Below are positions 19,442-28,446 of a stretch of 29,560 bases of DNA, in pieces. The notes beneath the pieces are model-generated. The model was not told the DNA's origin and made no database searches. It worked only from the letters and a program-made list of their open reading frames with translations. Position 1 is the first letter of the stretch. Every line of letters starts with the position of its first letter. The stretch is from a virus: positions 1-29,560 of the IMG/VR virus record IMGVR_UViG_3300031974_000226; one strand, 5' to 3'. The translations under genes were made by a program, and so were the position numbers.

Positions 19442-21169
19442 ATGAACACATTAGACCTGCTTAAAGAAGATTTCAAACTATTTTTGCAGGCTTTGTGGGC
19501 TCAACTAGATCTACCATCCCCTACCCGTGCTCAGTACGCTATTGCGGACTACCTACAGTACGGACCGAAACGTCTACAGATTCAGGCGTTTCGAGGGGTT
19601 GGTAAATCTTGGATTACTGGCGCTTTTGTGCTTTGGACTCTGTTCAAAGACAACGAAAAAAAGATCATGATTATCTCCGCCTCTAAGGAGAGAGCTGATA
19701 ACATGTCTATCTTTCTTCAGAAGCTGATTATCGAGACTCCCTGGCTGAATCATATGCAACCCGCTGATGATTCGGCTCGGTGGTCTCGTATTTCTTTTGA
19801 CATTAAGTGCCCACCCCACCAAGCCCCCTCCGTTAAGTCCGTTGGTATCACCGGTCAGCTCACGGGTAGCCGTGCAGATTTGATGATCCTGGACGACATT
19901 GAGGTTCCCGGAAACAGCATGACTGAGCTGATGAGGGAGAAACTTTTACAACTCTGTACTGAGGCAGAATCTATCCTTACACCAAAAGAGGATAGTAGGA
20001 TTATGTACCTTGGTACGCCACAAACAGTTTTTACTATCTATCGTAAACTTGCAGAACGTAACTACCGCCCCTTTGTATGGCCTGCTCGTGTACCTCGTAA
20101 GCTATCCAGCTACGAAGGACTCATCGCTCCCCAGCTCCAGGAAGACATCGACCAAGGTGCCGATCCGTGGAGCGTAACTGACCCGGATAGATTTGACCAT
20201 GAAGACCTTATCGAACGTGAAGCGTCTATGGGACGCAGCAACTTCATGTTGCAGTTCATGCTTGACACAAGCCTCAGTGATGCTGAAAAGTTCCCACTCA
20301 AGATGGCTGATCTTGTCGTCACCAGTGTTAATCCTAAGTCCGCTCCTGATAGCGTCATCTGGTGCTCAGATCCTAAAAATGTCATCAAAGACCTCCCAAC
20401 GGTTGGGCTACCTGGAGACTATTTCTACACTCCAATGCAGCTCCAGGGAGACTGGGGGGATTACTCCGAAACAATCTGCTCAGTTGACCCGTCGGGTCGT
20501 GGCTCAGATGAGACGGCAGCAGCTTTTATCTCCCAACGAAACGGTTACCTGTACTTGCATGAAGTGTCGGCTTACCGAGACGGATACTCAGACAATACGC
20601 TTCTGGACATTCTAAGACGGTGTAAAAAGTACGGTGTTACGAAGTTGGTCATTGAGACGAACTTTGGTGACGGTATTGTCGCTGAGCTGTTTAAGAAGCA
20701 TCTCCAACAAACTAAACAAGGTATAGACGTAGAAGAGGTACGTGCCAATGTCCGTAAAGAAGACCGTATTATTGATGCCCTTGAGCCTGTCCTTAATCAA
20801 CACCGCCTTATTGTTGATCGCTCTGTCATCGAATGGGACTTTAAATCAAATCCCGACGAAGCTCCAGAAAAGCGTCTCCTCTATATGCTCTTCTATCAAA
20901 TGAGCCGGATGTGTCGTGAGCGTGGTGCTGTACGACACGATGACAGATTAGACGCACTAGCCCAAGGTGTTAAATACTTTACAGATGCTATGGGTATCTC
21001 TGCCCAAGAGGTCATCAAAGAACGTAAAAGAGAGCAATGGAATGACATGCTAGAGGCGTTCCTAGACGACCCAGAAGCAGAGACAAACCACATCGTTTTA
21101 GGTATGTCTTTAGACCAAAAAAGACAAGCTAGAGGTGGTGGTAAGAACTCAGTCCCCACCTGGATTTAG
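19442..21169 (+). CDS. terL: Terminase large subunit (T7 gp19-like)
   Basis: 575 aa (T7 gp19: 586 aa). The packaging motor ATPase and headful/terminal nuclease. The ATPase Walker A is at about 50-56 (FRGVGKS) and Walker B with the catalytic acid at about 148-153 (MILDDIE). A coupling-type motif YLGTPQ follows at about 189-194. The RNase H-like nuclease starts with D349 in CSVDPSGRGSDETA, continues with LVIETNFGDGI, and ends with the conserved acidic RHDDRLDALAQGVKYF near residue 515. All expected residues are present. A hairpin terminator follows about 50 nt downstream, consistent with the end of the late transcript. Confidence 0.95.
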   Translation: MNTLDLLKEDFKLFLQALWAQLDLPSPTRAQYAIADYLQYGPKRLQIQAFRGVGKSWITGAFVLWTLFKDNEKKIMIISASKERADNMSIFLQKLIIETPWLNHMQPADDSARWSRISFDIKCPPHQAPSVKSVGITGQLTGSRADLMILDDIEVPGNSMTELMREKLLQLCTEAESILTPKEDSRIMYLGTPQTVFTIYRKLAERNYRPFVWPARVPRKLSSYEGLIAPQLQEDIDQGADPWSVTDPDRFDHEDLIEREASMGRSNFMLQFMLDTSLSDAEKFPLKMADLVVTSVNPKSAPDSVIWCSDPKNVIKDLPTVGLPGDYFYTPMQLQGDWGDYSETICSVDPSGRGSDETAAAFISQRNGYLYLHEVSAYRDGYSDNTLLDILRRCKKYGVTKLVIETNFGDGIVAELFKKHLQQTKQGIDVEEVRANVRKEDRIIDALEPVLNQHRLIVDRSVIEWDFKSNPDEAPEKRLLYMLFYQMSRMCRERGAVRHDDRLDALAQGVKYFTDAMGISAQEVIKERKREQWNDMLEAFLDDPEAETNHIVLGMSLDQKRQARGGGKNSVPTWI

Positions 21170-21331: not shown

Positions 21332-21967
21332 ATGCATAACGTAGAACTAGTTCATGTTACACCCGACGCTGAATCCTTGATAGCGTACATGGCTAGGGTA
21401 TCTAACCCATCCAACCAAAACAATACGGAGACCTCTCCACGGCTCATTAGGTATCTAATCAAGCACAAGCATTGGTCACCGTTTGAAATGGTAAATATGT
21501 GCGTTTCTATAGAGACCACTAGGAGTATTGCCGCACAGATACTGCGTCACCGCTCCTTTTCCTTCCAAGAGTTCTCTCAACGGTACGCTGAAGCTTCCCA
21601 ACTGGGCTCACCGGTCACTCCAGAGCTTCGTTTACAAGATACTAAGAACCGTCAGAACAGTATTGAGGTAGAAGAAGAAGATCTATTCCTAAAAGACCGT
21701 ATTAGGTACCTCTATAAGCACGCTGAACAGGTTTATGAGGCACTTCTAGAGGCTGGAGTGGCTAAAGAGTGCGCTAGAGACGTTCTACCGCTCTCAACGC
21801 CCACTAAACTCTATATGAACGGCACTTTACGCTCTTGGTTGCACTATTGTGACCTTAGATGCGCTAATGGTACCCAAAAAGAGCACAAACTGATCGCAGA
21901 TGGCGTTAAACAGCTCATCGCAGAGCAGTTTCCCCAAGTTTATGTCGCTATGTGGTCCGATGCTTAA
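21332..21967 (+). CDS. thyX: Flavin-dependent thymidylate synthase ThyX
   Basis: 211 aa, normal size for ThyX. It makes dTMP from dUMP using methylene-tetrahydrofolate and FADH2, supplying thymidine nucleotides for phage replication. The diagnostic RHR-x7-S motif is intact at residues 72-82 (RHRSFSFQEFS) and continues QRY. Upstream HWSPFEM (about 47-53) is the typical family block preceding it, and LYMNGTLRSWLHY near residue 170 is the conserved C-terminal helix. No Shine-Dalgarno is seen before ATG 21332. ThyX is known from several cyanophages. Here it sits beyond the terL terminator, at the putative genome end, probably as an independently expressed gene. Confidence 0.95.
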   Translation: MHNVELVHVTPDAESLIAYMARVSNPSNQNNTETSPRLIRYLIKHKHWSPFEMVNMCVSIETTRSIAAQILRHRSFSFQEFSQRYAEASQLGSPVTPELRLQDTKNRQNSIEVEEEDLFLKDRIRYLYKHAEQVYEALLEAGVAKECARDVLPLSTPTKLYMNGTLRSWLHYCDLRCANGTQKEHKLIADGVKQLIAEQFPQVYVAMWSDA

Positions 21968-22128: not shown

Positions 22129-22145
22129 TATCAAAATATTTTATC

Positions 22146-22234
22146 CCGCTCACTTCGTTCGCTCCTTTATACCGTGTTCGCGCTGTGTTATACTGCGCCG
22201 ACATGATTGCCAGGGGAGCGAGCGAAGCGAGCGG
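22146..22234. repeat. 20-bp inverted repeat flanking a promoter-like element
   Basis: CGCTCACTTCGTTCGCTCC (22147-22165) pairs with GGAGCGAGCGAAGCGAGCG (22215-22233). There is one mismatch and one G-T pair over 19 positions, plus an extra C-G pair outside (22146/22234). The 49-nt loop contains CGCTGTGTTATACT. As RNA or single-stranded DNA it would form a long stable stem. Confidence 0.85.
22166..22194 (+). promoter_or_regulatory. Candidate sigma70-like promoter inside the inverted repeat
   Basis: Extended -10 TGTTATACT (TATACT at 22189-22194) with a poor -35 (TTTATA, 17 nt upstream). The block CGCTGTGNYATACT is shared with the promoter at 22362-22375. It lacks the TGTCCAC element of the other three. 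A start codon-like ATG lies 8 nt after the -10 box. Confidence 0.4.
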
Positions 22235-22312
22235 CACTAAGTATAACGGTACGAATACGTATCAATATCAAACATTGATAACGATATGTAAAAGTCAAAA
22301 CATCTGTCTGCG

Positions 22313-22620
22313 GTTGAACGCCAGTCAAACAACTGTCCACCAATCCAACCAAACGGTGCGACGCTGTGCCATACTATATGCATCAACGACAGAGACAGAC
22401 ATGCGCAAGATTGAACGCCAGATGTGCGATGCTATTCGCGACAGCAAAGATTGGAAACTCGACAACACTGAGGTTATCAACTTTTACAATGATGATAAGC
22501 AACTCGTTGTAACTAGTGTATACCTGCACGGCAACCTGATTGCAGAACTTACTGACACTGACGTTACTATCTTTGATGGTGGCTGGCAGTCTAACACCAC
22601 CAAGTCACGATTGAACGCCA
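22313..22620 (+). repeat. Three dispersed copies of TTGAACGCCA
   Basis: Copies lie at 22314-22323, 22411-22420 and 22611-22620, all on the + strand within about 300 nt. The first is noncoding; the other two are inside the gene at 22401 but in different reading frames (IERQ and LNAI), so shared protein sequence does not explain them. Confidence 0.65.
22334..22375 (+). promoter_or_regulatory. Early promoter P1 (TGTCCAC-type)
   Basis: TGTCCAC (22334-22340) lies exactly 36 nt before an extended -10 TGCCATACT (CATACT 22370-22375), the same spacing as in the two promoters downstream. The -35 position is poor. The predicted start is near 22382, giving a leader of about 19 nt for the gene at 22401. 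Confidence 0.6.
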
Positions 22621-22797: not shown

Positions 22798-22980
22798 ATG
22801 ACTCCTAAGATTAAACTCAACGACGTTACCTTTGTTCTAGGCGACAAGCCTATGTCTCACCTGTTGTGGTGTAACAAGGTGCCCAAGGGTAAGCGTAACA
22901 AACCTGCCAAGATTAACGGTGTTCAGCATAGTGAAATCAGCAACGCGGTAGAACACACGTACTATCAGCCAGTTAACTAG
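22798..22980 (+). CDS. Small basic hypothetical protein
   Basis: 60 aa, Lys-rich in the middle (NKVPKGKRNKPAKINGVQ), starting MTPKIKLNDVTFVLGDKPMS and ending HTYYQPVN. No motif recognised. The basic segment suggests nucleic acid or acidic-protein binding. Bounded on the left by an ACACATTCAC spacer and on the right by promoter P2, which starts directly after its stop, so it looks like a self-contained early gene cassette. Confidence 0.65.
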   Translation: MTPKIKLNDVTFVLGDKPMSHLLWCNKVPKGKRNKPAKINGVQHSEISNAVEHTYYQPVN

Positions 22981-23029
22981 GTGTCCACTACCGCTTGACT
23001 TTTGCCCGATTCTGTGCCATACTAAAAGC
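22981..23029 (+). promoter_or_regulatory. Early promoter P2 (49-bp spacer, probable leaderless start)
   Basis: Begins right after a stop codon with GTGTCCAC. TTGACT (-35, 22995-23000), exactly 17 nt, then CATACT (-10, 23018-23023) with an extended TGC in front. Only AAAAGC separates the -10 box from ATG at 23030, so transcription should begin at or within a base or two of the A of the start codon. It has the same length (49 bp) and layout as P3. Confidence 0.8.
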
Positions 23030-23203
23030 ATGATCAACGAAACCAACATGACTGCCACTCTCCAAGCCGACGGAACTTATTTCATTCAGAACGCCGACGG
23101 TTTCACCGTTATGCGTAACGCTACCGATGCTTACCTGGATTGGATGTTCGAGCGTCAGCTGGTTGAGTGGGAAGCCGAGATGAACGAAGAGCCAATCTAC
23201 TAA
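23030..23203 (+). CDS. Small acidic early protein (57 aa)
   Basis: 57 codons from ATG 23030 to TAA 23201-23203. Contains TATLQADGTYFIQNADGFTV, then an acidic C-terminal helix (DWMFERQLVEWEAEMNEEP). Few basic residues. No family recognised. Small acidic phage early proteins often block host enzymes (T7 gp0.3 and gp2 are examples), but that is only an analogy. The start is supported by the promoter, whose predicted transcription start coincides with this ATG. It lies alone between two 49-bp promoter spacers. Confidence 0.7.
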   Translation: MINETNMTATLQADGTYFIQNADGFTVMRNATDAYLDWMFERQLVEWEAEMNEEPIY

Positions 23204-23252
23204 GTGTCCACCATCGCTTGCAATCCGCTCCAATCCGTGCCATACTACGTAC
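23204..23252 (+). promoter_or_regulatory. Early promoter P3 (49-bp spacer, probable leaderless start)
   Basis: Starts directly after a stop codon with GTGTCCAC. -35 TTGCAA (23218-23223), 17-nt spacer, extended -10 TGCCATACT (CATACT 23241-23246), then ACGTAC and ATG 23253. Identical in length to P2 and about two-thirds identical in sequence, with TGTCCAC again 36 nt before CATACT. Confidence 0.8.
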
Positions 23253-23468
23253 ATGCCTGAGACATCCACCATCACTCGCTCCCATCTCATCACTGCACTG
23301 CAGCACGAGTATGCTTTCTTGTGTCACGACGATTTCGATCCTGACGTTGACATGTCTGAGTCTGAGCATCTAGACTATCTCAACTCGCTCACTCTTGAGC
23401 AACTCATTATTGAGACAACTACCGACGACGAGTATACTCTCGACGACTTCATGCGTAACTGGCTTTGA
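23253..23468 (+). CDS. Highly acidic early protein
   Basis: 71 aa with about 17 Asp/Glu and two Arg, no Lys. Contains HLITALQHEYAFLCHDDFDP, then EHLDYLNSLTLEQLIIETTT and DDEYTLDDFMRNWL. The C-terminal pattern (LTLEQLI-x-ETT-x-DE-x-TLDDF) is one I recall from small cyanophage proteins with no known function. The charge would suit a DNA-mimic or host-enzyme inhibitor, which is inference only. Probably leaderless from P3. It is followed by the first hairpin spacer. Confidence 0.75.
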   Translation: MPETSTITRSHLITALQHEYAFLCHDDFDPDVDMSESEHLDYLNSLTLEQLIIETTTDDEYTLDDFMRNWL

Positions 23469-23543
23469 CTCTTACACTGAGGCTAACTTGTTAGCTTCTC
23501 TGTAGCACTCAAGCTACTCACTAACACATTCACAATTCGCTTC
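23469..23543 (+). promoter_or_regulatory. Hairpin spacer A (structured intergenic leader)
   Basis: Three nt after the stop: TTACACT (23472-23478), then hairpin 1 GAGGCTAA-CTTG-TTAGCTTC (23479-23498, one G-T pair, CUUG tetraloop), then hairpin 2 GTAGC (23502-23506) with GCTAC (23513-23517), then AACACATTCACAA (23523-23535) and ATG 23544. No Shine-Dalgarno. Same order of parts as spacers B and C. Confidence 0.75.
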
Positions 23544-23774
23544 ATGTTCTTCAACATCTTCCGCACTTCTGACGCTATCGACAACATCTCCGTTTCGCCT
23601 ATTCTTGGCGTTGTGCTTGTTGAGTATAGCAACGGTTTGTCCTATGAGTACACCAACGTTAGCCGTCGTGCTATCGTTAACCTGATGTGCAATCCTAACA
23701 TGTCGCTTGGCTTCTGGGTTAACGACAATTGCAAAGTGCACAGCCGCGTTAAGTATCAAGCACTCGCTTACTGA
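23544..23774 (+). CDS. KTSC-like domain protein, paralogue 1
   Basis: 76 aa. The pattern SDAIDNISVSP, VVLVEYSNGLSYEYTNVS, AIVNLM and later GFWVNDNC follows the small KTSC-type domain (a Ser/Ala-Ile strand, L-x-V-x-F/Y-x-NG-x-x-Y-x-Y-x-NV, a helix, then a G-x-F/W-x-N ending). This is a fold of uncertain function found in phages and bacteria. The next gene is a diverged copy with the same start (MFF) and blocks. Each copy has its own hairpin spacer upstream. Domain assignment is by residue pattern. Confidence 0.7.
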   Translation: MFFNIFRTSDAIDNISVSPILGVVLVEYSNGLSYEYTNVSRRAIVNLMCNPNMSLGFWVNDNCKVHSRVKYQALAY

Positions 23775-23850
23775 TAGTTACACTGAGAGCATACGTGCTC
23801 TCTCTGTAGCTTTCACAGCTACGCTCACTAACACTTAACACATTCACAAC
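23775..23850 (+). promoter_or_regulatory. Hairpin spacer B (structured intergenic leader)
   Basis: Three nt after the stop: TTACACT (23778-23784), hairpin 1 GAGAGCA-TACG-TGCTCTC (23785-23802, UACG tetraloop of the stable UNCG class), hairpin 2 GTAGCT (23806-23811) with AGCTAC (23817-23822), then AACACATTCACAA (23837-23849) and ATG 23851. Hairpin 1 has a different sequence from spacer A but the same position and pairing. Confidence 0.75.
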
Positions 23851-24075
23851 ATGTTCTTCCAAGCTGACAATCTGCAATCTTCCGCTATCCGTAGCCTGAA
23901 GCTCAATCCTGCAACTAGCCAGGCACTCGTTGAGTATGTCACCAGCGCTAAGTCTTTCCTCTATGAGAACGTGAGCGCTGATGCTATTGCTGACTTCTTC
24001 TTCGGTGAGATTGAGTCTGCTGGTAAGTTTGTCAATGCATATTGCAAAGGCAATCAGTACACCATCGTCGGCTGA
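23851..24075 (+). CDS. KTSC-like domain protein, paralogue 2
   Basis: 74 aa. Shares with the preceding gene the MFF start, SSAIRSLKLNP, ALVEYVTSAKSFLYENVS, AIADFF and GKFVNAYC blocks, so the two are tandem paralogues despite clear divergence. It fits the same KTSC-type pattern. Function unknown. It is preceded by spacer B and followed by spacer C, so gene and structured leader appear to have duplicated as one unit. Confidence 0.7.
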   Translation: MFFQADNLQSSAIRSLKLNPATSQALVEYVTSAKSFLYENVSADAIADFFFGEIESAGKFVNAYCKGNQYTIVG

Positions 24076-24144
24076 CGATTATACTAAAGCCTTCGGGCTT
24101 TTCTATAGTCCTCTGTGACTATGTGTTCTTTACCACATTCACAA
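24076..24144 (+). promoter_or_regulatory. Hairpin spacer C (structured intergenic leader)
   Basis: Three nt after the stop: TTATACT (24079-24085), hairpin 1 AAAGCC-TTCG-GGCTTT (24086-24101, the classic C(UUCG)G tetraloop, followed by TTC), hairpin 2 ATAGTC (24105-24110) with GACTAT (24117-24122), then CCACATTCACAA (24133-24144) directly abutting ATG 24145. Hairpin 1 could be a weak terminator. Confidence 0.78.
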
Positions 24145-24471
24145 ATGCTTTTCTACACCCACGAACTCACCGACGCTCTCTCTGAGCGCTTCGACGATGT
24201 ATCCGAGATCAACGATGTTGCACGCTACGGTTGTAGCGGCGGTGTGTCTGGTTTCATCTACCACACCGAATGCGCTGAGTTCTTTGATGCTCACGAAGAC
24301 AGTGTTGAGGATGTTTGCTATGACATGCTCGGCAAAGACTGGATGGCTACGCTAACCAAGCAAGCAGACATTGCATCCATTCTTGAGCTCAAGACTCAAG
24401 CAGTTTGGTTTGTCGTTGAGGCTTACTGTCAGGCTGTTATGCAAGAGATTGAGGAGGCAGTTCCCGCCTAG
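24145..24471 (+). CDS. Conserved cyanophage-type hypothetical protein
   Basis: 108 aa from ATG 24145; a longer frame from 24115 would run through the hairpin spacer and is rejected. Contains LTDALSERFDDVSEINDVAR, YGCSGGVSGFIYHTE, FFDAHEDSVEDVCYDMLG and a helical acidic C-terminus. The GCSGGVSGFIY block resembles a small phage/plasmid family without known function. Acidic overall. The spacer box ACACATTCACAA touches its start codon. Confidence 0.72.
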   Translation: MLFYTHELTDALSERFDDVSEINDVARYGCSGGVSGFIYHTECAEFFDAHEDSVEDVCYDMLGKDWMATLTKQADIASILELKTQAVWFVVEAYCQAVMQEIEEAVPA

Positions 24472-24550
24472 TTAGCTATACTTAGCGGCTCAACATCGAG
24501 TCGCTACCTAACCCAAACACATTCACAACACACACTCCAAGGACGCAGCA
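24472..24550 (+). promoter_or_regulatory. Hairpin spacer D with Shine-Dalgarno
   Basis: Four nt after the stop: CTATACT (24476-24482), then one longer hairpin TAGCGGCTC (24483-24491) with GAGTCGCTA (24498-24506), 9 bp including one G-T pair. Then AACACATTCACAA (24516-24528) and CCAAGGACGCAGC (24537-24549). AAGGA gives a proper Shine-Dalgarno 7 nt before ATG 24551, which the other spacers lack. Confidence 0.72.
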
Positions 24551-24772
24551 ATGCTAGTCTACATTGTCACCCAACGCTATCCGTACTCCGAGTCTGACAT
24601 TGTGTCAGTGTATCAAAACATTGATGCAGTAATGCACAAGATGGAGATTGTCCGCCTTCACGGTATGGATGAACTCGAAGAGATTAAGATCGAGTGCGCG
24701 GAAGTTATCAGTGAAGATACTGCACTTGAGCGCCTCAACAATGTTCGTAAGTACAAGCAAGTCTCCGAATGA
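24551..24772 (+). CDS. Small acidic hypothetical protein
   Basis: 73 aa: a short beta start (MLVYIVTQRYPYSESDIVSV) followed by helices (NIDAVMHKMEIVRLHG, LEEIKIECAEVIS) and a charged tail. No family recognised. It has its own Shine-Dalgarno (AAGGA) and starts a run of overlapping genes: its stop overlaps the next start as ATGA. Confidence 0.7.
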   Translation: MLVYIVTQRYPYSESDIVSVYQNIDAVMHKMEIVRLHGMDELEEIKIECAEVISEDTALERLNNVRKYKQVSE

Positions 24773-26017: not shown

Positions 26018-26129
26018 ACAGTATCACGAACTGGCTGAGGATTACCCTGAGCTAGCACAACTTATCCACATTCACGACGACACCAAGGACGCAGCGGAGG
26101 ACTTTATTGGCTACACCAGCGGAGATTGA
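25998..26129 (+). CDS. Acidic mini-protein (43 aa) overlapping the RNA polymerase start
   Basis: From ATG 25998: MSLISIEQYHELAEDYPELA, then QLIHIHDDTKDAAEDF. Overlaps the preceding gene by 20 nt and the RNA polymerase gene by 23 nt. It may couple translation of the polymerase, whose Shine-Dalgarno lies inside it. A second CACATTCAC...CCAAGGACGCAGC block (26068-26095) lies within its coding sequence. Confidence 0.6.
   Translation: MSLISIEQYHELAEDYPELAQLIHIHDDTKDAAEDFIGYTSGD
26095..26109 (+). promoter_or_regulatory. Shine-Dalgarno and TTG start of the RNA polymerase gene
   Basis: CGGAGG (26095-26100) lies 6 nt before TTG 26107. The frame has a stop at 26053-26055 and no ATG or GTG between that stop and 26107, so TTG is the only well-placed start for the polymerase. 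Confidence 0.7.
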
Positions 26130-28446
26130 CGAACAGATTAAGCTCGAACGCGATGCTATCTCGCAGGGGCTAACTAAGCTCCACAAGAATACACGCGAGC
26201 TTGAGGCTAAGTCCTATGCATCCGCTACAGTGTACGGTGCAGCATCTATTGACACACTGTTACCGCTTGTTGTCGAACAGATTGAGGCGACAAAGCTACG
26301 TCTAACCAAAGGTCAAGCGGGTGCAGCGTTCAAAGAGATACACCAATACCTAGCAGATGTTGAGCCTTTAGCTGCTGCTGCTATCGCTGTTAAACTAACC
26401 TTTGATAAGGTCTTCTCATACAAAGATAAGAGCAATCAGGTTACAAACGTATGCGATGCGATTGGTCTTGGTATTGAGCAAGAGTGTCAGATGCGTCACT
26501 ACGAAAAGAACGCACCTGGCTTACTCAAAGTCCTCAAAGATAACTACTGGCACAAGTCCATTGGTACTCAGCAGAAGCTAGTAGTCATTCGTACTTTAAT
26601 GAACCGCTATGATGTCAAACAGTGGGATGCGTGGGGTAGATCTAATCGCATCAAACTTGGAGGCTGGCTACTTGATTGCATCATGCAAAGTAGCGGGTGG
26701 TTCGAAAAGGACATGCAGCAAGAGGGACGCAAACGTGTACAGTATGTTGTACCTACTCCAGCGTTCATTGAGATCAAGGACGCAGTGATGCGTGACGCTG
26801 AGCTATTCAGCCCGCTTGCGTGGCCGATGCTCATCGAACCTAACGACTGGTCACACGATCGTTGTGGTGGCTATCTCCTCAACGAGGTCATGCGTGGTCA
26901 CGATATGGTCCGTCGCGGTAACCCCACATGTATACAGGGGGAGAAACCACTGGAGTTCTTGAATAAGATCCAGAAGGTCTCCTACTGTTTAAACCCTTTT
27001 ATTGTAGGGGTAGCTGAGAAGTTAGATGAGTTGGAAAGACCAGTAGGTAAGTTCCTTCCTATCGTTCACTACCCTCTTCCTCCTAAACCAGTAGACATTG
27101 CGGAGAACGAAGAAGCTAGAAAGTCTTATAGACGACAAGCTGCTGAAGTTCGTAATAAGCAAGCGAATGAGTTTAGGAAGTCATGTCGTACTCGAATGAC
27201 GATGGAAGCAGTAGCAAGGTTTAAGGATAGAGAGAAGTTCTACATTCCGTGGTCGTTTGACTATCGGGGTCGTGCTTACCCTATCCCTGCGTTTCTTACT
27301 CCACAAGATACAGACTTTGGAAAAAGTTTGTTGAGGAGTTATGAACAATCTTACATGACTCCTGAGGCTGAAGACTGGTTAGCTTTTCAAGTAGCTACAA
27401 CGTATGGTCTTGACAAAGCTCCTATGCAGGAGCGATTGCAATGGGTACAAGACAACATCACATTCATCAAGCGCGTTGCTACAGATCCCATTGGTTATCT
27501 TTCTGAATGGGAAGAAGCTGATGAGCCTTGGCAGTTTCTCGCAGCTTGTGAGGAGTACTACCATTGTGTTGTCGTTTGTGACCGCAGTCACACTGGCTTG
27601 TTTGTAGCAACAGACGCTACATGTAGTGGTCTACAAATCCTCGCAGGATTGGCACGTGACAGATCTACTGCACAACTTGTAAACGTCCTGCCTGGTAACA
27701 AACCACAGGATGCATACAAGGTCGTTGCTGAACAAGCTAAGCCACACAGTCCTAAGTCTATTCGTCCTTACATGGATCGAAAAACGGTCAAGCGTGTAGT
27801 GATGACCGTTCCCTATAATGCCAAACCTTTCTCCAACCGTGGGTACATCAAGGACGCACTGAAGGAAAAGGGTGTTGAGATTGACAAGGACGATCTAACC
27901 AAGACTGTTAAAGCAGTCAGAGATGCTATGGATGTCGTTGTCCCTGGTCCTATGGCTGTTATGACATGGATTGAGGATGAGGTATCCAAGGCTATTGATC
28001 GTGGTGAGACGAAGCTCACGTGGGTAACACCATCTGGCTTTGTCGTTAACCAACGGCTGATGAAGAAGCAGACGGTGCAAGTTGAGCTACAGTTGATGGG
28101 TCGTTGTAAACTTACAGTTGCAACAGAAGACTCCAACAAGGTAGACAAACAGCACCACAAGAACGCAACAGCGCCCAATCTGATTCACAGTTTAGATGCA
28201 AGCTTGCTCCACCTATCTGCACTACGCTTCGACGCTCCGATTTCCCTCATACACGACTCGGTTTTATGTCGTGCTACTGACATGTCTGTTTTATCAGCCA
28301 TTGTTCGTGAGACATACATGCACCTCTTTGCGGAGCATGACTACCTGAGAGACTTTGCGCAACAGATAGGCGCAGAGACTGAACCACCGATCATTGGAGA
28401 TCTGGAACCAGAATCCGTGATTGAATCCACTTACTTCTTTTGTTAA
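26107..28446 (+). CDS. Single-subunit DNA-directed RNA polymerase (T7 gp1-like)
   Basis: 779 aa, shorter than T7 RNA polymerase (883 aa). It transcribes the phage middle and late genes. Catalytic core is complete: DYRGR with D385; D503 in TDATCSGLQ (equivalent of T7 D537); RKTVKRVVMTVPYNAK with K562 and Y570 (T7 K631 and Y639, spacing of 8 kept); WVTPSGF; PNLIHSLDAS; and LIHDS with D717 (T7 D812). The C-terminus STYFFC replaces the T7 FAFA foot. Start is TTG 26107 behind a strong Shine-Dalgarno. The gene contains the second copy of the TAACCCCACATGTATA repeat (26919-26934). Its promoters cannot be identified from this window. Confidence 0.97.
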   Translation: MATPAEIDEQIKLERDAISQGLTKLHKNTRELEAKSYASATVYGAASIDTLLPLVVEQIEATKLRLTKGQAGAAFKEIHQYLADVEPLAAAAIAVKLTFDKVFSYKDKSNQVTNVCDAIGLGIEQECQMRHYEKNAPGLLKVLKDNYWHKSIGTQQKLVVIRTLMNRYDVKQWDAWGRSNRIKLGGWLLDCIMQSSGWFEKDMQQEGRKRVQYVVPTPAFIEIKDAVMRDAELFSPLAWPMLIEPNDWSHDRCGGYLLNEVMRGHDMVRRGNPTCIQGEKPLEFLNKIQKVSYCLNPFIVGVAEKLDELERPVGKFLPIVHYPLPPKPVDIAENEEARKSYRRQAAEVRNKQANEFRKSCRTRMTMEAVARFKDREKFYIPWSFDYRGRAYPIPAFLTPQDTDFGKSLLRSYEQSYMTPEAEDWLAFQVATTYGLDKAPMQERLQWVQDNITFIKRVATDPIGYLSEWEEADEPWQFLAACEEYYHCVVVCDRSHTGLFVATDATCSGLQILAGLARDRSTAQLVNVLPGNKPQDAYKVVAEQAKPHSPKSIRPYMDRKTVKRVVMTVPYNAKPFSNRGYIKDALKEKGVEIDKDDLTKTVKAVRDAMDVVVPGPMAVMTWIEDEVSKAIDRGETKLTWVTPSGFVVNQRLMKKQTVQVELQLMGRCKLTVATEDSNKVDKQHHKNATAPNLIHSLDASLLHLSALRFDAPISLIHDSVLCRATDMSVLSAIVRETYMHLFAEHDYLRDFAQQIGAETEPPIIGDLEPESVIESTYFFC
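26919..26942 (+). repeat. Copy 2 of the TAACCCCACATGTATA repeat, inside the RNA polymerase gene
   Basis: The 16-base match is followed by CAGGGGGA. Here it encodes GNPTCIQGE, a stretch without obvious T7 polymerase equivalent. Copy 1 is noncoding, so shared protein coding does not explain the match. Confidence 0.75.

Follow-up and report, generated by a model that had tools for sequence, protein, structure and literature searches.

The early region of an Autographiviridae-type cyanophage, carried on a 29,560-base virus contig (IMG/VR record IMGVR_UViG_3300031974_000226; the whole of this stretch of DNA is hereafter called the window), consists of seven small genes (A-G) parted by six spacers, of which two are promoter spacers of 49 bp and the other four hairpin spacers. 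At the level of sequence comparison, the hairpin spacer is shown to be a sense-strand RNA element in which a central strand, S2, has two alternative partners, S1 and S3, with both pairings kept through compensatory change. As judged by this covariation, the element is a selected RNA structure with a job besides gene exchange, and it is highly probable that the structure is a switchable one. Alignments with related phages also show that the gene content between these standard parts differs from one relative to the next, and gene exchange with its boundaries at the spacers is very likely indeed.

In the window and four named relatives, the hairpin spacer follows a common layout: the stop codon of the upstream gene, S1 (YUAYA), CU, a stem-loop, UC, S2 (UGUAGC), a short YUCA loop, S3 (GCUAC), an unstructured leader, and the ATG of the next gene. 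S1 and S3 are direct repeats and S2 is the inverted repeat of both; S2 is able to pair either with S1, around the stem-loop and a 2x2 internal loop, or with S3 downstream. By geometry, the S1:S2 and S2:S3 helices are mutually exclusive, and this second, competing helix had been overlooked in the initial annotation of the region. The S1:S2 helix (P1) measures 5-6 bp and that of the stem-loop (P2) 6 bp or more, while the internal loop reads CU/UC in 39 of 50 representatives. With stem-loops of 15-46 nt, the distance between S1 and S2 is highly variable, and short stem-loops are frequently capped by UNCG-like loops. The leader after S3 is poor in G (8%, versus about 22% in genes) and carries a Shine-Dalgarno-like string in only 1 of 152 cases. 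Of 193 copies, 74 have S1 exactly 2 nt past the stop codon and about two thirds have it no more than 10 nt away, although the distance is 13-36 nt in many real cases, giving an overall range of 2 to 36 nt. In the window, all four hairpin spacers fold better than dinucleotide shuffles (z scores of -2.9, -3.6, -6.4 and -3.6 for spacers 1-4).

The covariance model R1 was built from 11 spacer copies, with a structure comprising the S1:S2 helix and the stem-loop only and no S3. Window hairpins 1-3, all three of which are training sequences, match R1 with E values of 4e-11 to 3e-7, and about 100 further loci, most of them outside the training set, score comparably. In an alignment that had been fitted to the structure model, 91.8% of the P1+P2 cells are paired, versus 73.6% in shuffled and 34-47% in slid controls, and the covariation of 0.478 compares with 0.141 (shuffled) and 0.06-0.12 (slid). 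Twelve S2 types occur among 155 distinct spacers, including UGUAGC, UGUAGU, UAUAGU, UGCAGU, UGCAGG, UGAGGG and UGAUGG, and S1 and S3 vary along with them. One of the variant types is that of window hairpin 3 (AUUAUA / UAUAGU / GACUAUG). Because the MAFFT alignment A3 does not align S3, the S2-S3 pairing was tested by permutation. Among 50 representatives, S2 pairs better with its own tail than with permuted tails, the observed pairing being equalled in 0 of 20,000 permutations. When the S1 strands were permuted among the same 50, none of 20,000 trials matched the observed pairing, and the same was true of both permutations, at 20,000 trials each, with one representative per S2 class (n = 11). 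The stem contains 58 G.U combinations versus a single A.C, and it is therefore read as sense-strand RNA rather than a DNA cruciform. Opposite the conserved G of S2, S1 has U in 40 of 49 representatives and S3 has C in 43. The fold energies of S1:S2 and S2:S3 differ by a median of 0.7 kcal/mol, and both folds would be expected to form in life.

The initial annotation had divided the spacers of this region into a promoter class and a hairpin class, and its placement of both was confirmed. The hairpin spacers, of 75, 76, 69 and 79 bp, each carry YTAYACT 3-4 nt past the stop codon and, like all features of the early region described here, lie on the plus strand. Hairpin spacer 1 (23469-23543) has S1 at 23471-23476, the stem-loop at 23479-23498, S2 at 23501-23506 and S3 at 23513-23517, with a G-poor leader running to the ATG at 23544; it is 95% identical to its counterpart in the related locus L014. 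Hairpin spacer 2 (23775-23850) is arranged in the same way, with S1 at 23777-23782, the stem-loop at 23785-23802, S2 at 23805-23810 and S3 at 23817-23822. In hairpin spacer 3 (24076-24144), S1 (ATTATA, 24078-24083), S2 (TATAGT, 24104-24109) and S3 (GACTATG, 24117-24123) are all off consensus, yet pairing is retained; its stem-loop (24086-24101) has a UUCG loop, and its core is identical in L014 and L015. Hairpin spacer 4 (24472-24550) keeps TATACT and a stem-loop (24483-24506) but lacks the TGTAG/GCTAC strands (S2/S3), gives no covariance-model match even at E<=10, and is a degenerate or different member. The ACACATTCACAA box that had been described as ending every hairpin spacer does so in spacers 2 and 3 (reading CCACATTCACAA in the latter), but about 9 and 22 nt still come after it in spacers 1 and 4, respectively. 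The stem-loop of spacer 4 is followed by a Shine-Dalgarno-like leader, CAAGGACGCAG. Strings resembling CAAGGACGCAG recur at window positions 24538, 25511, 26084, 26775 and 27845, both ahead of some starts and within coding sequence, and S-RIP1 has them too.

In all, R1 finds 196 copies of the element in 106 phage loci, and every match with E<0.01 is on the sense strand and intergenic. A pattern scan independent of gene content recovered 86 viral stretches. R1 copies are present in 9 of 12 complete or near-complete phage records and, in these nine, are confined to the early region; wherever the position of the RNA polymerase gene is annotated, the copies sit upstream of it. A host origin was also considered, and an exact-pattern scan of 84,980 bacterial and archaeal genomes returned 20 scattered, non-cyanobacterial hits of at most 20 bits, which amounts to chance. 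Three S1/S2/S3 elements in a row occur on a 64.6-kb viral contig (L227:9684-10570), one of which, TCTGCA/TGCAGA/CTCTGC, was missed by R1. No phage record similar to L227 was found, and a T7-like RNA polymerase was not detected on it, in a search whose control was silent.

Some spacers contain an additional hairpin insert of about 22 nt (GAGTGTCTCGTTACACTCGACT), always in the sense orientation, at positions that vary from before S1 to the loop of the stem-loop, the S2-S3 loop, or after S3 (L017:4128, L021:4123, L022:1520, L029:4480, L033:5229, L047:5236, L050:1309, L055:5236, L063:900, L165:7114, and L196 on the minus strand). Near relatives without the insert differ by a clean 22-nt insertion, and an exact scan of all viral contigs found GAGTGTCTCGTTACACTCGACT in 11 contigs, all of this phage group; it looks like a tiny mobile hairpin.

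The promoter spacers lie at 22981-23029 and 23204-23252, each beginning at the stop codon with GTGTCCAC, as had been reported. In spacer 1, the -35 box TTGACT (22995-23000) and the -10 box CATACT (23018-23023) are 17 nt apart, as are TTGCAA (23218-23223) and CATACT (23241-23246) in spacer 2, and in both the start codon follows exactly 6 nt past the -10. Across the fetched loci, this exact spacing recurs in 23 of the 31 promoter-like sites of the class that have a start within 60 nt. A third copy of the class (GTCCAC ... GTGCCATACT, 22336-22372) precedes a leader of about 37 nt and an ATG at 22410. The promoter spacer is probably a host-type sigma-70 promoter; given the usual start-site spacing, an ATG 6 nt past the -10 would place the first transcribed base at the A of the ATG, and a leaderless mRNA is therefore predicted. 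The promoter spacers fold no better than shuffled sequence, no promoter-like site was found in the hairpin cores, and the genes behind hairpin spacers are mostly without a promoter of their own. The Kyano_Gp96-like gene lies behind a promoter in the window and L003 and behind a hairpin in L019, L024 and L042, demonstrating that the same gene is able to sit behind either spacer type.

The initial annotation had further proposed that genes are gained and lost at the spacers, and this was borne out when the genes upstream and downstream of the elements were clustered into families. With a KTSC-like gene upstream, the family on the other side of the same element is DUF7222 (56), KTSC (15), ArdA-like (15), DUF3574/S-adenosylmethionine (SAM)-lyase-like (9), Kyano_Gp96-like (4) or another, while the DUF7222 family is followed by at least 8 different families. 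Where the members of a pair share the upstream gene (at least 85% nucleotide identity) but have different downstream families, mean identity runs from 92% for the upstream gene through 88% for the hairpin and 78% for S3 to 52% for the leader and 53% for the downstream gene, versus 93, 84, 84, 74 and 83% in controls sharing both genes; similarity is thus lost at S3 and the leader. Pairs sharing the downstream gene only show the reverse profile: downstream 90%, leader 77%, S3 74%, hairpin 72% and upstream 52%. The clearest single case is that of the window and L014, in which the check that had been suggested, a search for different genes between the same spacers in different phages, proved positive. 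Genes D and E are 90% and 88% identical between the two, the core of hairpin 3 is identical and hairpin 4 is 80% conserved, but the genes enclosed by hairpins 3 and 4 (DUF7222 in the window, an ArdA-like gene in L014) share only 49% identity and are unrelated. Hairpin 4 is flanked by different genes in the two, before as well as after it. Likewise, promoter spacer 1 is 86% identical in L014 with an unrelated gene in place of gene B. In L014, moreover, one more gene stands ahead of hairpin 2, and gene G, which follows hairpin 4 in the window, is absent at this place.

Gene A (22798-22980, 60 aa) is preceded by a ACACATTCAC box without a hairpin, and gene B (23030-23203, 57 aa) is replaced by unrelated genes in L003 as well as L014. 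Gene C (23253-23468, 71 aa) belongs to phrog_734. Genes D (23544-23774, 76 aa) and E (23851-24075, 74 aa) are KTSC-like paralogues, both matching phrog_7365, with KTSC matched weakly; they are the one related pair among genes otherwise unrelated, as had been noted. Gene D ends in two tandem in-frame stops (TGA TAG, 23772-23777), with the hairpin directly after. Gene F (24145-24471, 108 aa) encodes a very acidic DUF7222 protein and is followed by gene G (24551-24772, 73 aa). With regard to function, the L014 gene in the slot of gene F matches phrog_2059 (anti-restriction) at 2.7e-7, and its predicted structure has ArdA (2w82) as its best PDB match, with a probability of 0.96 but an E value of 0.05. 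The DUF3574 family also matches SAM lyases, with a score under the curated cut-off; this is the type of function that phage T3 uses in place of the Ocr protein of T7. The presence of ArdA-like and SAM-lyase-like proteins in the slot makes the suggested early host-takeover role a reasonable one, if worded as host-takeover/counter-defence. DUF7222 proteins are strongly acidic (about 22 D+E versus 4 K+R per 103 residues), and gene F gave a confident structure model (predicted local distance difference test score of 86) for which no fold match was found. Since they share a slot with anti-restriction genes, DUF7222 proteins are counter-defence candidates by association.

The best explanation that can be offered for the whole is one to which we give an even chance: the early region would be a chain of units of one gene each, connected by RNA/DNA parts of two standard kinds. 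One part would be the host-type sigma-70 promoter, with the start codon placed at the expected transcription start; the other would be the RNA element directly past the stop codon, running from S1, the stem-loop, S2 and S3 through a G-poor leader without a Shine-Dalgarno sequence to the next ATG. On a long early transcript, S1:S2 and the stem-loop would together make up a double-stranded target, interrupted by the fixed 2x2 internal loop, for cleavage by an RNase III-type enzyme of the host, as happens in the early mRNA of T7. The stem-loop may then protect the 3' end of the upstream mRNA, while the freed S2 would refold on S3 and protect the 5' end of the downstream one. With mRNA ends of its own for each gene, swaps at the parts would cause little harm, and the common spacer sequence may aid homologous recombination. 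Mini-III is present in cyanobacteria alongside one to three RNase III genes (PMC10989914). Such cleavage and refolding would explain why S2 matches both partners, why the internal loop is constant, why the stop-to-S1 distance is free to vary, and why the element in these T7-like phages is confined to the early region, which the host polymerase is expected to transcribe. The RNA-processing role is put forward tentatively, at somewhat less than an even chance, and the spacers are best regarded as insulating connectors.

Several observations weigh against this explanation and must be set beside its rivals. At 5-6 bp, and often with wobble pairs and one mismatch, P1 is short for a classical RNase III site. 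Nor are homologous genes always flanked by the spacers: S-SBP1 has the KTSC-DUF7222 gene pair (D-F) without a model-type spacer and S-RIP1 carries only the box between genes D and E. As these two junctions and window spacer 4 all lack it, the S1/S2/S3 element is not essential. The main rival is a switch coupled to translation, in which a ribosome at the upstream stop codon covers S1 and allows S2:S3 to form, S1:S2 forming otherwise; expression of the next gene would then be tied to translation of the previous one. The short stop-to-S1 distances, which for about two thirds of copies place S1 within the footprint of a terminating ribosome, and the near-equal energies of the two folds would suit such a switch, but the stop codon is too often 13-36 nt away, and S3 lies well upstream of an ATG that has no Shine-Dalgarno sequence there to hide; we consider it improbable. 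Competing hairpins are also typical of attenuators, and hairpin 3 (AAAGCC-UUCG-GGCUUUUCU) is terminator-like, as would be expected if one fold halted the host RNA polymerase between early genes. However, a terminator scan gave more sites in shuffled than in real sequence, and no site fell within the spacers, in which a GC-rich stem with a U-run was not found. The U-tracts extend over only 3-4 nt, the 5-7 bp of the S2:S3 hairpin are of mixed content, and the genes beyond mostly have no promoter with which to resume, making a terminator or attenuator an even more improbable role. Least probable by far is a DNA-level role, in which a recombinase or a DNA-binding protein would recognize S1, S2 and S3 as repeated operators. 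Their arrangement as direct and inverted repeats would allow it, but the conservation of G.U without A.C, the variable S1-S2 distance with no fixed phasing, and the single orientation all disfavor a DNA operator or cruciform.

A different question is whether the spacers promote exchange at all. Under plain mosaicism, exchange would occur at every gene boundary, since breaks inside genes are lethal, and the spacers would merely be regulatory sequences located there; this is compatible with a processing role and rivals only the idea that the spacers promote exchange. Turnover was scored by local alignment with a contig bootstrap, in which the downstream region was unrelated in 49% of similar-upstream pairs at hairpin junctions versus 19% at other junctions, an excess whose confidence interval (0.12-0.48) excludes zero. 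Together with the identity of spacer cores on both sides of swapped genes and the persistence of hairpin identity at 88% right up to the break, this excess speaks against plain mosaicism. In its favor, turnover takes place at other junctions too, and at those within 1 kb it reaches 30%, for which the bootstrap interval of the excess (-0.02 to 0.36) includes zero; the spacers are thus not shown to be more recombinogenic than nearby gene ends, and the early region is labile as a whole. In addition, many of the metagenome contigs are related, and pair counts are not independent. Hairpins within one genome are no more alike than hairpins between genomes, a lack of homogenization that gives no sign of frequent spacer-to-spacer exchange. 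Taken as a whole, the cassette-exchange reading of the initial annotation stands with respect to gene turnover at the spacers but is unsupported with respect to a recombination system. Plain mosaicism comes just short of an even chance, and it is doubtful that the spacers actively promote recombination.

Cassettes of this kind have a precedent in the promoter-early stem-loops (PeSLs) of T4-type phages. In a PeSL, a promoter and a stem-loop are joined in one composite motif. As described in PMC4503421, PeSLs (Arbiol et al. 2010, Comeau et al. 2014) are found in a hypervariable region, where they set an early promoter and a stem-loop between the small early genes, and were proposed to shuffle genes between related phages, a mechanism which that paper judged unlikely for the cyanomyovirus S-PM2. 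The spacers described here also lie between small early genes of a hypervariable region, and gene content also changes at the element between related phages. They differ in that promoter and stem-loop occupy separate spacers, the position of the promoter suits a leaderless mRNA, a third strand competes for pairing in the stem-loop element, and the phages are T7-like podoviruses of cyanobacteria rather than T4-type myoviruses. In T7 early mRNA, RNase III processing sites are internal-loop hairpins between early genes transcribed by the host RNA polymerase; the T7 literature is cited in PMC8616936. The hairpins of the cyanophages likewise separate early genes, ahead of the gene for the phage RNA polymerase, and have two helices with an internal loop, but their lower helix is shorter, they have a conserved alternative partner in S3, and their cleavage is only inferred. 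An integron-type cassette array needs an adjacent site-specific integrase; none was recognized among the early open reading frames, judged by reading and not by profile search, and none is annotated in the early regions of S-RIP1 or S-RIP2. Structured RNAs in cyanophage genomes are known from Rfam, including PhotoRC-II, wcaG, manA and glnA (PMC2864571, PMC9964418), the majority being leader RNAs that precede metabolic or photosynthesis genes of T4-like cyanophages, but an Rfam 15 covariance-model search of the region matched no family and gave a single chance-level hit on the opposite strand. Finally, the halovirus HF2 has repeated intergenic spacers of two classes that carry promoters, according to the abstract of PMC8707807; this is an archaeal virus, and no three-strand RNA element is reported there. 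The principle, gene shuffling combined with cassettes of early promoter and stem-loop, is thus already known from the T4-type PeSLs. New within the material searched are the RNA structure of three strands, the promoter-ATG spacing suited to leaderless mRNA and the setting in T7-like phages.

In the remainder of the window, tail and terminase genes (large subunit 19442-21169) and then thyX (21332-21967) precede the early region, and a T7-like RNA polymerase (26107-28446) lies beyond it. The nearest named phages are S-RIP1, S-RIP2/KBS-P-1A and S-CBP4, together with the MedDCM-OCT-S04-C24 contig; all are classified as Autographiviridae and infect, or are assigned to, marine Synechococcus, and none spans more than about half of the 6.6-kb query. 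The interval between thyX and the early genes contains a 30-nt imperfect inverted repeat (CCCGCTCACTTCGTTCGCTCC / GGAGCGAGCGAAGCGAGCGG, 22136-22244), which possibly marks a genome end or packaging region; a similar repeat occurs in S-RIP1 (L001, about 2779-2872).

At its boldest, the hairpin spacer could be a new class of structured phage RNA, a three-strand "cut and re-cap" switch by which one early mRNA is ended and the next is begun. It would occur in two or more cyanophage lineages that are unrelated to each other (L227 among them) and serve as a standard plug-in socket for counter-defence genes. We regard this as rather unlikely, but if it is true, the DUF7222 proteins that occupy the socket alongside ArdA-like and SAM-lyase-like genes would be new anti-defence proteins. 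The three-strand covariation yields a clear and cheaply testable prediction of RNA processing, and the exact 6-nt spacing between promoter and ATG predicts leaderless early mRNAs in cyanophages. The connector may also serve as a search tool, as genes between two connectors are probably early host-takeover genes and would provide counter-defence candidates in uncultured phages. Standard connectors of defined RNA structure would, moreover, give a physical basis to the reshuffling of early genes in T7-like cyanophages.

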